Shown piece after piece: positions 10,079 through 16,054 of a stretch of DNA of 61,021 bases. Source of the stretch: a virus. The notes below the pieces were generated by a model. The model saw only the letters and a list, made by a program, of their open reading frames with translations. It had not been told where the DNA came from and ran no database searches. Positions within the stretch are counted from its first letter, which is position 1, and the number at the start of each line of letters is the position of its first letter. The DNA lies in IMG/VR virus record IMGVR_UViG_3300009164_002749, positions 1 through 61,021 of that record. One strand, written 5' to 3'. The position numbers and the translations under genes are program-made.

Positions 10079-10582
10079 TTACCAGCATCTAGTATAATCA
10101 ACTAATTCACTTTGTCTACTAACTTCTTTGACAAAGTATGCACAGGTCGGTTTAGGCCCTGTATGTAATGGAGTACATAATAATTGTCCAGGTCTCATTT
10201 TAGGAAAGTACCATTTAACATCTTGATAGATATCAATAATATCAATCTCTAAAAATTCTGGTCTAAAACTGCTTAGAGGGTTAAAACAAAATGTTTTAAA
10301 TCCGCGATCATTTAAACTTGTTAATGGAAGTATTTCCATATCAGGGCCTTCTGGATCACCGACAATAGTACACCAATCTAATGGCATTACTAATTCGTGT
10401 TTGCCAATTTTCAGTGCGGCTGCTGGTCCAGTAAAACTTTCTAAAAATATTAGTGGAACAAAGAAATAATCCGGGTTAGAACTATCACTGTTATCTAGTA
10501 CAGAAAATCTTAGATCATCATCTATCTCTTCTGGTAGGTCGTTGAGATAAAATACTTTATCCTCTAGTGTTAAAATTTGCAT
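10079..10582 (-). CDS. Conserved phage protein next to uvsW
   Basis: The 167-residue protein contains the distinctive blocks GKHELVMPLDWCTIVGD, EILPLTSLNDRGFKTFCFNP and KMRPGQLLCTPL, then CAYFVKEVSRQSE near the C-terminus. I recall a family with these blocks in aquatic T4-like phages; none has a known role. No nucleotide-binding or metal motif is evident. Its ATG overlaps the stop of uvsW, so it is cotranslated with that helicase gene. Confidence 0.55.
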   Translation of the reverse strand: MQILTLEDKVFYLNDLPEEIDDDLRFSVLDNSDSSNPDYFFVPLIFLESFTGPAAALKIGKHELVMPLDWCTIVGDPEGPDMEILPLTSLNDRGFKTFCFNPLSSFRPEFLEIDIIDIYQDVKWYFPKMRPGQLLCTPLHTGPKPTCAYFVKEVSRQSELVDYTRCW

Positions 10583-12084
10583 TATTGATATTTTACCTTT
10601 TCGATTGTAAAGGGGTACTTAGCCTCTTTATAAAATTTCTTACGCTCTGTTAAATGACGTTTTGCGTATTTTGTACTTGCTGTGAAGTCCCATATCTGTA
10701 CGAAGTCCTTGTCGTCTGCTTTTCGAATACCTCGGCCAATCGACTGTATAACTCGTACAAAGCTCTTTCCGGGTTCCAAAAGAACCAGATTAAAAATCCT
10801 AGGGATATTAATACCCACAGCGGCCACACCGTAAGTCGCCACAATAATCTTGTTATCAGCCGTTTTAATTTCATCGTATTCTTCTTTTCTATCTTTAGTT
10901 TTTACTTTTCCAGAAATGAATACGCAGTCTGTTAAATTCTTTGTTAAGAATTCGCCACTTTCAATTCTGTCTACTAACACTAGTGTATTGCCCGAATCAG
11001 CAATACCATTAATTAATGAAGCAATATAAGTCATCCTATCTTCATTGGTAACAAGGAACTTTAATTCTTCAGCATAGCCGCCGAACTCTTTCCATTCAGC
11101 AGTTTGGATAACATTAACATGACAACCACTTAATACGCCTGCTTCTTGTAATTCGTGTGCCTTAACACGATGAACAACTTCTCCTAGGCTAGCACGAATA
11201 CTTTGAAATTCGTGGTCTGCTTTTGGCACAGTTCCTGTTAATCCCCAACGAATAGGTGCGTTAGCTAGGTTACGGGTTAATAAAGTTTTTAGTACGTCGG
11301 CTTTGGCCATATGCACCTCGTCAACCATGACACAGCTAACGCCGTCTAACAATTCTGTTAATCGGGCTAACTGTGTGCCGCCGTCAAATTCCTTGGAACC
11401 TTTGTCTAAAATATTCAAACTTTGCCAGGTGCAAATAGTATGTGTTTTATCTAGATTTTTTCTGTCTCCGTAGTACACACCGACATCTAATCCACAGTTA
11501 ACAAAGTCTTCTTCTGTTTGTTCGACAAGTGATTTGTTGGGAACAATGGTTACTGTACGACCGTATTTTTCACAGATTTTTGCCAGTGTTGCAGTGGTAA
11601 TAGTCTTACCGAATCCTGTGGCAATTTCTTGAATGCACTGAGGATTCTCAAGAAATTTATTGATAACTTCTACCTGGTCATCGCGTAATCTGATTTTTTC
11701 TCCAGCAAATCGATGTCCAACTGGCCATGTTTGATCACCCCAAAAATCCTCAAAAATTTCAGGAAAATCTAAGGCCACAGACTGTCTATGATCTTCTACC
11801 TCAATGTAATAATTTTTACTCTCAAGATATTCTAGTACCTGTGGCAGCATTGACAGATAGGTTGTTCCGCCAAGACCAAAAAAACTTATAGTACCGTCCC
11901 ATCTACCTAATTTATAGGCTGGTCGATACCGTGCTGTAGGGTCCTCGTATTTGAATTTTTTGACCAATGCCTTACGGGCATCAAGATCTAAATTTTCAAT
12001 CTTAATGTTAACTTCGTCTTTGATTATAATTTTACACGATGACAAAATTAAATTCCCGCTGTAATGTTTTTTCTGAATATACAA
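10582..12084 (-). CDS. uvsW: UvsW-like DNA helicase
   Basis: The 500-residue protein is an SF2 helicase like T4 UvsW, which remodels stalled forks and dissolves R-loops and branched recombination intermediates. Residues 30-75 match the UvsW N-terminal domain (RYRPAYKLGRWDGTI). Walker A is ATGFGKT (155-161), the DEAD-box variant is DEVH (255-258), and motif VI is QSIGRGIRK near residue 450. The start appears to be TTG at 12084. An in-frame ATG four codons earlier is followed by a stop, and the next internal ATG would delete the N-terminal domain. It overlaps the upstream gene by 53 bp. Confidence 0.9.
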   Translation of the reverse strand: MYIQKKHYSGNLILSSCKIIIKDEVNIKIENLDLDARKALVKKFKYEDPTARYRPAYKLGRWDGTISFFGLGGTTYLSMLPQVLEYLESKNYYIEVEDHRQSVALDFPEIFEDFWGDQTWPVGHRFAGEKIRLRDDQVEVINKFLENPQCIQEIATGFGKTITTATLAKICEKYGRTVTIVPNKSLVEQTEEDFVNCGLDVGVYYGDRKNLDKTHTICTWQSLNILDKGSKEFDGGTQLARLTELLDGVSCVMVDEVHMAKADVLKTLLTRNLANAPIRWGLTGTVPKADHEFQSIRASLGEVVHRVKAHELQEAGVLSGCHVNVIQTAEWKEFGGYAEELKFLVTNEDRMTYIASLINGIADSGNTLVLVDRIESGEFLTKNLTDCVFISGKVKTKDRKEEYDEIKTADNKIIVATYGVAAVGINIPRIFNLVLLEPGKSFVRVIQSIGRGIRKADDKDFVQIWDFTASTKYAKRHLTERKKFYKEAKYPFTIEKVKYQ

Positions 12085-13216
12085 TTAAATTTTCATGATT
12101 TTGCATGAAATCTCTAATTGAGTAATGTGGTGCTTCGAACCCCATATTAATTATGGAATGAAATCTTATATTAGATTTTAGCACAGGCTTAGGCATTTTG
12201 CTACTGATAAAGACAATCTTAGTGTTTTCTCCTAGTGGAGAATTTAGATCATTTTCTTTGACAAAATTATTGAAATTTCGGTCAATTTCGGCACCTAGCC
12301 TAAACATCACAGACATGTCATAATTTTCAATACCTAGTGATTTCAAAAAATTATAGGCAACTCGAAGTTTTGCTAATTCATTGCCTCCCGGAATAACAAA
12401 CAGAGTAGGGCCTAGATATTTTATAAAGGTAGAGAGGCAAGAAATTGGATCTTTTTCACTGTTAATGTGAAATTGTACTCCGGGATCCGAATCTAGAAAA
12501 CTTTTAACAATTGGATCAATACCTAAACTGTCAAACTGATCAAAAATTTCATTTGACCATGTAGTGACGCCTTTTTGTCGTGCTTCAAACAAAGCCTGTA
12601 TGGTGTCTGTGGCCTCTAATTTTGGCAAATTTCTGGTAATATTCTTAAAAACTGGTCTACCGTTTTCAATAGCCAACATGGGTATAAATTCTTCCATGTG
12701 TTCTTTGATAGAGGTTACCTGTTCGAGGTAATTTTGAAATATTTCGTCAAGTTCAAATTGCTCGCTGGAAAATAATCCCGATAAAACTTGTATGGAATTT
12801 TCAGTTAATGCGAAAATCCATGCTTTTTCTTCAGGTGACCATTGTGCATACTCTAATTGATCTCTATTTTTTCTAATTATGTTAACATAGGTTTCATTGT
12901 ACGGAAATTCTACCTTAATAATTTTTCCAAACTGAGGATGTTCATGTACACTAATTTTTTTAGTGTTATTAATTTGTCTAAATGGCAATCTATAGGTGGG
13001 ATTTTTCAGAAAGATTTGAATATCCTTGCCTAATGCCGTAGTGAGTTGTACTGAGTATGTTTTTATGATCCGTAGTGCTACGTTACCTTGTTTTTCGGTG
13101 AAGCCGAGACCTCGACCAATTTGGTCTGTAAAACTATAGACAAGTTTTTCGTCCCATTGATTAGGTTTTACTGCACCAGTAAGGGCTATTGCAATGATTA
13201 AATCTTCTACGTTCAT
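12032..13216 (-). CDS. HARP-domain-like protein, possible degenerate helicase partner of UvsW
   Basis: The 394-residue protein contains a segment at about 97-148 (GKIIKVEFPYNETYVNIIR, then WSPEEKAWIFAL) with the spacing and W/K/W residues of the HARP domain of SMARCAL1, which binds forked DNA. The C-terminal half alternates hydrophobic strands and helices (TLFVIPGGNEL, TKIVFISSKMPKP, HSIINMGFE, ENLIVYSE) like a RecA-type fold, but I find no Walker A or DEAD box, so it may be an inactive helicase. It lies between UvsY and UvsW and overlaps uvsW by 53 bp, which fits a role in fork or recombination processing. The function is inferred. Confidence 0.5.
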   Translation of the reverse strand: MNVEDLIIAIALTGAVKPNQWDEKLVYSFTDQIGRGLGFTEKQGNVALRIIKTYSVQLTTALGKDIQIFLKNPTYRLPFRQINNTKKISVHEHPQFGKIIKVEFPYNETYVNIIRKNRDQLEYAQWSPEEKAWIFALTENSIQVLSGLFSSEQFELDEIFQNYLEQVTSIKEHMEEFIPMLAIENGRPVFKNITRNLPKLEATDTIQALFEARQKGVTTWSNEIFDQFDSLGIDPIVKSFLDSDPGVQFHINSEKDPISCLSTFIKYLGPTLFVIPGGNELAKLRVAYNFLKSLGIENYDMSVMFRLGAEIDRNFNNFVKENDLNSPLGENTKIVFISSKMPKPVLKSNIRFHSIINMGFEAPHYSIRDFMQNHENLIVYSEKTLQREFNFVIV

Positions 13217-13724: not shown

Positions 13725-13976
13725 TTAGTCCTCGTCTTCACCGTAGTCGTAATCTTCTTCGTCGATGTCATCATCTTCGTCTTTGTTTTCGTCAATGACT
13801 AATTGGATTGCATCATCTAAATGGGTATCGTAACCCATTAATCCTTCAAGTACCGATAACTCAACATCTTTGCCGATAAGGAAATCAACATAGTGATTGG
13901 CTGCGGTTTCTTTGTTTTTATCAGATACATATTCTCGAAATGTATCCCATACTTCAATGATTAGATCTTCTTCCAT
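13725..13976 (-). CDS. Small acidic protein between uvsX and uvsY
   Basis: The 83-residue protein has a helical N-terminal 60 residues and a strongly acidic tail (about 20 Asp/Glu from residue 64, ending YDYGEDED). No motif identifies it. Its ATG overlaps the uvsX stop (TAATG) and it sits between the recombinase and its mediator, so it may modulate that complex, perhaps as a DNA mimic or binding partner. This is inferred from position and charge only. Confidence 0.55.
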   Translation of the reverse strand: MEEDLIIEVWDTFREYVSDKNKETAANHYVDFLIGKDVELSVLEGLMGYDTHLDDAIQLVIDENKDEDDDIDEEDYDYGEDED

Positions 13977-15043
13977 TATGCTTCCTCGCTGTCTTCTGTT
14001 ACTACTGTAGTTTCAGTTTTCATACCATTCTTGGAAATATCTTCCATAATGATAGACAACCCTTCTTTTTCATTGCGATCCCATGCTTTGCGGAATTGTT
14101 TGATTACTTCGCCTTCAGCTGTTGTGTAAACAAGACTATTGCCTTCTTTTTTCAACATACCTTTGGCTTCAAACAAATCAACTAACCCACTATGAGGACT
14201 CATACCTGTTGTATATGGAATTTCAACTTGTACACTCTCAAATGGCTTTGCATAACGAGTTTTCATAATCTTACAAGCAGAACGAATACCGTTAACTGTT
14301 GTAGTTTTGTTACCATCTGCATCTGTTTTTAATTTTAACTTACGCATAGCAACAACAATAGATGACGCATAAATGAAGCCTTGGCCGCCACTAATTTTGT
14401 CATCTGGATCAAACATATCTTGGCTAGCGTATGTGTGATTTGTACAAACCATACCTACATTCCATGAACCAAACATGTTAACACAGTTACGAACAAGACT
14501 TGTAAGTGCTTTAGGTTTACGACCCATATCACCCTTCATCTCACCTGCTTCAAACTGATTAACGTCTGTAGGTGTTAACAACATACCCAACGAATCGATT
14601 ACAAATAACACCTTTGGTCGTTCACCGTCGGGCATAACTTTATATTCTTTCATGAATTCTGAGATAGTTTTAGCTACATCATCAATCATAGCCATGTTAA
14701 GTTTTAAAAGTTTATCATCGCTGGTATTAACACCTAGATCTTTTAACCATTTTTCATCGAGGGCGTTTTCACTATCAACTAAGATAACAAAGATGCCTTG
14801 TTCCTGTGCTGCCTTAACAATGTTTCCGGAGCAGATATAAGATTTACCTGCGCCAGATTCACCAGCAAATACAGTTACCTTACCAAGCGGAACTCCTTTG
14901 TAGAAGTCGCCGCTGATAAGATAGTTCAAAGCAAAGTTACCTGTTGATATCCAGTCTGTAGGATCATTAAATCCAATTCCTAAGCCGTCGATAGACTTAG
15001 TGATAGATTTACGAAACTTTGAAATATCAAAGGCTTTTCCCAT
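13976..15043 (-). CDS. uvsX: UvsX recombinase (RecA/Rad51 family)
   Basis: The 355-residue protein is the T4-type RecA homologue that catalyses strand exchange and drives recombination-dependent replication. Walker A is GESGAGKS (61-68), Walker B is VLFVIDSLG (about 145-153), and an SGGQGFIYASSIVV segment corresponds to the L2-side region. T4 UvsX is 391 residues; the C-terminal tail is acidic as expected. A good TAGGAGATA Shine-Dalgarno site lies before the ATG, 12 bp after the gp32 stop. It is cotranscribed with gene 32 and followed by the acidic gene and uvsY. Confidence 0.93.
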   Translation of the reverse strand: MGKAFDISKFRKSITKSIDGLGIGFNDPTDWISTGNFALNYLISGDFYKGVPLGKVTVFAGESGAGKSYICSGNIVKAAQEQGIFVILVDSENALDEKWLKDLGVNTSDDKLLKLNMAMIDDVAKTISEFMKEYKVMPDGERPKVLFVIDSLGMLLTPTDVNQFEAGEMKGDMGRKPKALTSLVRNCVNMFGSWNVGMVCTNHTYASQDMFDPDDKISGGQGFIYASSIVVAMRKLKLKTDADGNKTTTVNGIRSACKIMKTRYAKPFESVQVEIPYTTGMSPHSGLVDLFEAKGMLKKEGNSLVYTTAEGEVIKQFRKAWDRNEKEGLSIIMEDISKNGMKTETTVVTEDSEEA

Positions 15044-15055
15044 GTTTATCTCCTA

Positions 15056-16054
15056 TTATTGCTTGTTGCGATTACGAATCATCGCAATAATATCGGCTGC
15101 ACGAGATCCTGCATCACCAGTTGCTGGAGCAGATGTTTCTGCCGCAACATCTTTAGCGGGTGTTGCTGCCGCAGATTCAAAAGGGATATCGTCTTCATCT
15201 ACTGAAGCAGATGCCTTTGGTGTTGGTGTTGACGCACGTGGGGCAGATCCGGTTGCTTGTCCACTGCCACCGTAGCCCGCTGGCTTAAAGTATTGACCCC
15301 AGCGATCGCCATCATACGCTTCGCCATCAACTGATGCCGCAAACATTTCTGCGATAACTTTGAGTTCAACTTCGCCTGGCTTCTTAGGTAGGAAACTCTT
15401 CAAATCATGAAGACCGTATTGTTGAATAGCCGCATTTTCTGCTTCGCTTAAAGCACGTTCACGACGAGCCCAAGTACTAGTAGAGTAGTCAGCGTAACCG
15501 CCTTTGCTAGTTTTAGCAATTTTAAAATCCAAGCCACGGACATAGTCTGTTGGCAATTCTTCAATTTCACTATCCATCAATGCGTTTTTAACAATGTTAA
15601 AAATCTGGCTACCGATGATGAATCGACGAATTGGATTCTCGGGAGTCTTATCTTCCTGTAGTTTGCTGTCGCCAACAAAGCCTTGGAAAATATAAGATTT
15701 CTTTTTCCAGTACTTACGACCCATGTCTTCCAAAGACTTGTCTTTGAACCATGGACGAACTTCTGTCAATACTGGACATGTTTCGCCCCACATTTCCATA
15801 CAAGGAACTTGCACAGTCACTGGCTTGGAATTGGTTTCACCTTTAACACCGGCAAAGGGCAATTTGATCATTGCTCTTTCAATCCAGAAAAAAGTGTTAT
15901 TTGGATCAGCGTCTGGAAGGAAGCGAACTGTTGTAGTCGAACCTTCTGGCATATTCCAGTGAGGGTAAATTGCGTTGTCTCCACCGCTTGCGCTACCGGT
16001 GTTTTGTTGAGATGATGCTTGAAGTTTTGCGCGAATTTCTGCTAACGTTGCCAT
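15056..16054 (-). CDS. 32: Single-stranded DNA-binding protein gp32
   Basis: The 332-residue protein coats single-stranded DNA in replication and recombination. The core resembles gp32 (YPHWNMPEGSTTTVRFLPD, FFWIERAMIKLPFAG, CMEMWGETCPVL, KYWKKKSYIFQGFV). T4 gp32 binds zinc with His and three Cys; only two Cys appear in the equivalent stretch, so zinc binding is probably lost. A Gly/Ala/Ser-rich linker leads to DEDDIPF, which resembles the bacterial SSB tail tip but is about 45 residues from the C-terminus, and the protein ends RAADIIAMIRNRNKQ. An AAGGAAAAA Shine-Dalgarno site precedes the ATG. Confidence 0.9.
   Translation of the reverse strand: MATLAEIRAKLQASSQQNTGSASGGDNAIYPHWNMPEGSTTTVRFLPDADPNNTFFWIERAMIKLPFAGVKGETNSKPVTVQVPCMEMWGETCPVLTEVRPWFKDKSLEDMGRKYWKKKSYIFQGFVGDSKLQEDKTPENPIRRFIIGSQIFNIVKNALMDSEIEELPTDYVRGLDFKIAKTSKGGYADYSTSTWARRERALSEAENAAIQQYGLHDLKSFLPKKPGEVELKVIAEMFAASVDGEAYDGDRWGQYFKPAGYGGSGQATGSAPRASTPTPKASASVDEDDIPFESAAATPAKDVAAETSAPATGDAGSRAADIIAMIRNRNKQ

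Follow-up and report, generated by a model that had tools for sequence, protein, structure and literature searches.

Among phage enzymes, the UvsW helicase serves as the model for fork regression, and has so far been studied as a stand-alone motor. The T4 protein has itself been reported to carry one HARP domain, a domain whose published fold is a five-stranded sheet packed on two helices (PMC4666394). T4 also encodes UvsW.1, a small trihelical, non-motor protein associated with uvsW, which has been proposed to be a DNA-binding partner of the helicase (PMC7824862). In SMARCAL1-type annealing helicases, the HARP domain is found in the same chain as a motor with Walker A and DEAH motifs, and PMC4035279 cites work in which fusing HARP to other SNF2 motors gave annealing helicase activity.

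The window analysed here, the whole 61,021-nucleotide stretch of viral DNA, contains a gene next to uvsW, referred to below as X. We consider it reasonably likely that its product is an ATPase-dead relative of HARP/DRD-type SF2 helicases, serving as a branched-DNA-binding accessory in the UvsX/UvsY/UvsW pathway. None of the papers found describes the X protein, and it is probably a variant of the HARP/DRD-SF2 architecture not previously described. The reality of the gene, its conservation, its context, the predicted domain layout of its product and the absence of a Walker A motif were all established computationally, whereas the loss of ATPase activity, the binding to DNA and to partners, and the function ascribed to the protein are putative. 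Gene X is a single ORF starting with ATG, occupying exactly positions 12032-13216 of the minus strand and encoding 394 amino acids; the AlphaFold2 model of the whole protein has a mean pLDDT of 89.9. The genes are ordered gp32-like SSB, UvsX, an acidic 83-aa ORF, UvsY, X and UvsW, with the following features:

15056-16054, minus strand: gp32-like ssDNA-binding protein (SSB); phrog_1192, E 9.6e-69
13976-15043, minus strand: UvsX recombinase; phrog_97, E 1.1e-68, and PF00154
13267-13722, minus strand: UvsY-like recombination mediator; phrog_231, E 8.5e-18
12032-13216, minus strand: gene X, encoding an N-terminal helical module, a HARP-like domain and a degenerate SF2 RecA-like lobe
13004-13216, minus strand: predicted all-helical module of X, residues 1-71; from the alignment and model, with an invariant Q43 in 'TEKQ'
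12767-12958, minus strand: predicted HARP-like domain of X, residues 87-150; from PF07443 matches, the domain model, and alignments with XPB and a SMARCAL1-named protein
12050-12589, minus strand: predicted degenerate SF2 RecA-like lobe of X, residues 210-389; from VIA-align and profile comparison, no Walker A
12185-12304, minus strand: most conserved patch of X, residues 305-344; from the columns of a 66-sequence alignment
10582-12045, minus strand: SF2 helicase of the UvsW type, its Walker A (GFGKT) and DEVH motifs intact; overlaps X by 14 nt from a conserved TTG start

The 83-aa ORF between uvsX and uvsY (13725-13976) is strongly acidic, and is also found at locus L001. Downstream of uvsW, at 10079-10582, lies a gene for a 167-aa phrog_11279 protein to which no function is assigned; it is found in 71 of the 75 loci carrying X described below.

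Taken alone, the window X protein matched nothing in Pfam, PHROGs or PDB sequences, nor in annotated phage genomes or bacterial genome contigs; one divergent member of the family was equally without a match in annotated phages, and profile searches of the PDB returned chance matches only. A direct scan retrieved one close viral relative (79% identity), which together with 80 loci collected using UvsW as the anchor gives a set of 81 loci; the alignment of the X family comprises 66 members. At 75 of these 81 loci the gene just upstream of uvsW, with the same orientation, is an X homologue and, viewed from X, uvsW is directly 3' on the same strand in every one of the 75. The recombinase gene uvsX is present at 61 of the 75. 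In four of the six loci without X, the sequence starts at uvsW or only slightly before it, such that the upstream gene is missing from the record. The upstream sequence is present at the other two, L081 and L082, and X is absent: other genes take its place upstream of uvsW in L081, and X can be found nowhere in the 181 kb record of L082. The UvsW proteins of both are approximately 70% identical to that of the window, despite the lack of X upstream. By eye, the unrelated genes upstream of uvsW in L081 appear glycosyltransferase-like.

When divergent members of the X family were used as queries instead, the loci recovered came to 13 with that of the first relative included; uvsW was directly downstream at all 13, several of which sit on contigs already in the UvsW-anchored set. 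Gene X is under purifying selection: pairwise dN/dS values range from 0.01 to 0.19 over nine comparisons, with a value of 0.13 against the nearest relative. Therefore, given these ratios and its constant neighbour, X is functional and, in its phage group, linked to uvsW. The ORF is real, and belongs to a conserved phage family.

The composition of the cluster (gp32, UvsX, UvsY, X and UvsW) is also compatible with X being a recombination mediator or loader, acting on ssDNA or D-loops together with UvsX, UvsY and gp32, and positioned beside uvsW only as a consequence of sharing the cluster. Such a role would also accommodate the helical N-terminal module, which matches another phage family: phrog_21015, with no assigned function, is matched by 14 of the 66 members of the X family, at approximately residues 17-75 in two of these. 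As this match falls on the helical module in some of the 14, the module may be one shared between phage proteins. However, at only 31 of the 63 loci with enough sequence does uvsY adjoin X, as against 75 of 75 for uvsW, a contrast that is partly built in because the loci were collected by UvsW; furthermore, the predicted HARP-like fold suggests binding to junctions. A mediator or loader role consequently appears rather unlikely.

The reading of X as a relative of HARP/DRD-type helicases depends in large part on the domain at residues 87-150. The motifs originally quoted as following the SMARCAL1 HARP layout are all present in the window protein: residues 101-106 are KVEFPY, residues 110-117 YVNIIRKN and residues 126-137 WSPEEKAWIFAL. 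The FPY and W..K.W.F.L pattern is found in most members of the family, fading in the most divergent subgroup. PF07443 (HARP) is the Pfam family matched by the greatest number of X members, 9 of 66, compared to three for the runner-up. The best E value among members is 3.5e-5, from a sequence that was not one of those scanned singly. Every match that could be located lies at around residues 97-139, the highest score among these being 16.5 bits, and HARP is likewise the top Pfam match of the family consensus (residues 101-139, E 2.7e-4, 20.8 bits). The Pfam gathering cut-off for PF07443 is 25 bits, which is reached neither by the consensus nor by any member whose bit score was obtained. Scanning whole phage records with the HARP profile gave matches in 2 of 12, but also matches below the cut-off in five control genomes, and hence is weak evidence taken alone. 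The PF07443 matches are consistent but sub-threshold, and judged from the profiles the resemblance to HARP is beyond chance at the level of the family; a match below the cut-off exists for the family, through the nine members and the consensus, and none for the window protein by itself.

The predicted structure is informative in the same respect. Modelled alone, the domain has a pLDDT of 89.7, and consists of strands at residues 87-93, 97-103, 124-127 and 132-136 with helices at 108-116 and 139-150. Hence X would share with the HARP of SMARCAL1-type proteins both a profile match of about 40 residues, albeit sub-threshold, and a strand-strand-helix-strand-strand-helix order placed before a helicase lobe, although the model has four strands where the published HARP fold has five. 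The damage-recognition domain of an archaeal XPB (AfXPB, residues 3-60) can be aligned with residues 84-161 of X over 56 residues (rmsd 2.2, Z 5.5), and XPB II of S. tokodaii gives a Z of 5.1. Small alpha/beta folds of the eIF1 type reach Z scores of up to 6.7, with higher rmsd, such that the XPB match is supportive rather than decisive. A 2014 study by Mason et al is cited in PMC6213257; it reportedly found a common fold for HARP and the XPB domain. In a viral structure library, the full X model matches, with a probability of 1.00 (TMt 0.75, rmsd 2.0), the entire length of a 73-aa phage protein that takes its name from SMARCAL1; because the query range is not printed, the match is putatively assigned to the HARP-like domain on account of the small size of the target. 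Foldseek against the PDB gave no E value below 0.001 for X. The solved SMARCAL1 HARP structure is absent from both the Foldseek and VIA lists, and this is not counted against HARP. Set against the originally suggested likeness to the HARP fold, the model has four strands and two helices along with the XPB and SMARCAL1-named matches, and no fifth strand.

The same data can be read as nothing more than a generic beta-beta-alpha fold on which a short W..K.W motif happens to lie, X then being a phage protein of unrelated origin that binds DNA or protein. The sub-threshold nature of the matches would be explained in this way, as would the eIF1-like folds scoring equally high by structure and the matches of three members to DUF5710, a family that has the W-K-W motif too. 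Such a coincidence is nevertheless unlikely, as the HARP matches extend over about 40 residues in nine of the 66 members and fall in one place wherever located, while the domain also agrees with the XPB damage-recognition fold, colinearly with the RecA-like lobe, and with the SMARCAL1-named phage protein.

If X is HARP-like, the question arises as to whether it supplies something that UvsW is missing. It had been suggested that the two form a split annealing helicase, with X providing fork targeting through HARP and UvsW the motor, acting as one enzyme and encoded with a 53-bp overlap. The strict adjacency of the genes and their short overlap would fit such an arrangement, as would the activity of the HARP fusions to other SNF2 motors. 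By contrast, the window UvsW is complete: its GFGKT Walker A and DEVH motifs are intact, and it has its own N-terminal domain, matched by UvsW_N at residues 23-96 with an E value of 0.0014, below the cut-off of that family. Given also the HARP domain reported within T4 UvsW, X probably does not represent a targeting half that UvsW lacks. Furthermore, UvsW proteins of approximately 50% identity occur without X in jumbo phages, such as vB_Pa-PAC2 (a relative of PA5oct), RaK2 and Vibrio phage 2.275.O, and X has a large additional lobe that would be needless for mere targeting. We therefore regard a split helicase as distinctly improbable. A 53-bp overlap would require UvsW to start at a TTG at 12084 that is not kept in relatives, and was dropped; the likelier overlap is of 14 bp, from the TTG at 12043-12045. 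At the position that overlaps the end of X by a fixed 14 nt, uvsW has the start codon TTG at 33 of 75 loci and ATG at 12 of 75. The conservation of the TTG and of the overlap suggests translational coupling and weak initiation of UvsW.

The C-terminal half of X, in its predicted model, resembles one lobe of an SF2 helicase. VIA-align matches residues 210-389 to many SF2 lobes with Z scores of 8-10, which among RecA-like lobes exceed background by a moderate amount only; the matches include XPB residues 294-475 (Z 10.1) and T4 UvsW residues 87-267 (Z 8.4), and residues 231-389 of X align with 76-213 of AfXPB (Z 8.9). Structures of DEAD-box lobe 2 nearly tie with the lobe 1 matches, on which basis an identity with lobe 2 was entertained. 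Yet of 17 profile comparisons (15 with neighbouring genes or gene families, two with the UvsW lobes), that with lobe 1 of UvsW was best (P 0.004, score 25.1), ahead of the next at 17.2 and of lobe 2 at 16.8. In addition, with residues 84-161 falling on AfXPB 3-60 and 231-389 on 76-213, both domains of X are colinear with those of one known helicase, in which the recognition domain is followed by lobe 1. These two results favour lobe 1, from which the X lobe has quite probably originated. None of the 66 X members has a Walker A motif, which is present in 78 of 79 UvsW controls, and none has DExH/D at the position of motif II, where 78 of the 79 controls have DE.H. The original description of this half as helicase-like in fold while lacking Walker A and DEAD box is in accord with these data.

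The most conserved columns of the family, invariant or at least 90% conserved over the 66 sequences, are F305, R306, N316, N325, K340, P342 and K343, all within this lobe. Although so polar a patch might suggest an active enzyme of another kind, such as a nuclease, on a RecA- or Rossmann-like scaffold bearing FR...N...N...K.PK, this is highly improbable, as there is no invariant acidic residue or histidine of the kind most nucleases would need, no conserved acidic set in the alignment, no Pfam nuclease match, and the closest folds are those of SF2 lobes.

Compared with the known systems, X as a putative ATPase-dead HARP/DRD-type relative is distinguished from SMARCAL1/HARP proteins in having no SNF2 motor or ATP motifs after the domain, there being only one RecA-like lobe. 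Although colinear with the damage-recognition domain and lobe 1 of archaeal XPB (6p66/2fwr), it is without lobe 2, Walker A or DEAH, is only 11-15% identical, and has the extra N-terminal helical module. With the UvsW of T4 (1rif) and of the window it shares the lobe 1 fold, the gene cluster and a comparable domain order, whereas they are complete motors with Walker A and DEVH; no significant similarity was detected between X and UvsW N-terminal domains (P 0.19). Like T4 UvsW.1 it would be a non-motor protein associated with uvsW, but its 394 residues adopt another predicted fold.

Two annotated phages encode what resembles the N-terminal half of X. Gp418 of Sinorhizobium phage Phosso matches residues 2-169 (profile E 4.7e-15), and gp083 of Agrobacterium phage Atu_ph07 gives a weak profile score against residues 2-215 (P 0.0025); a 181-aa Atu_ph07 protein, taken as gp083 by its length, has a fold match to X with an E value of 1e-5. 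Both genes are upstream of uvsW, as is X, but end after the HARP-like part, being followed by a separate, highly diverged gene (gp419 and gp082 respectively). By eye, gp419 (L083, 4381-5883) and gp082 (L085, 4462-5466) look like two-lobe SF2/SNF2 motors in which all catalytic motifs are degenerate, an appearance confirmed by none of the Pfam, SNF2, UvsW or X profiles.

The combination of a HARP-like domain with a lobe devoid of ATP-binding residues suggests a putative role in which X probably aids UvsW or its partners in finding branched DNA. The HARP-like domain would probably bind branched or fork DNA, while the RecA-like lobe, of which there is only one and which most likely corresponds to lobe 1, would have lost its nucleotide-binding motifs and kept the strongly conserved patch. 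As a non-catalytic accessory in recombination-dependent replication or fork repair, X may then act at DNA junctions, where it would position or modulate either UvsW or the filament of UvsX and UvsY. A more speculative extension, to which we attach rather low confidence, is that X and UvsW constitute a heteromeric fork-remodelling machine, in which a dead pseudo-helicase subunit reads the geometry of the junction and either regulates the hold of the live subunit on DNA or doubles it. If the accessory role is correct, an ATPase-dead HARP-like partner would be an unrecognised part of recombination-dependent replication across a T4-like phage group, and X would offer a simple system in which the role of the HARP/DRD domain could be considered apart from that of the motor.
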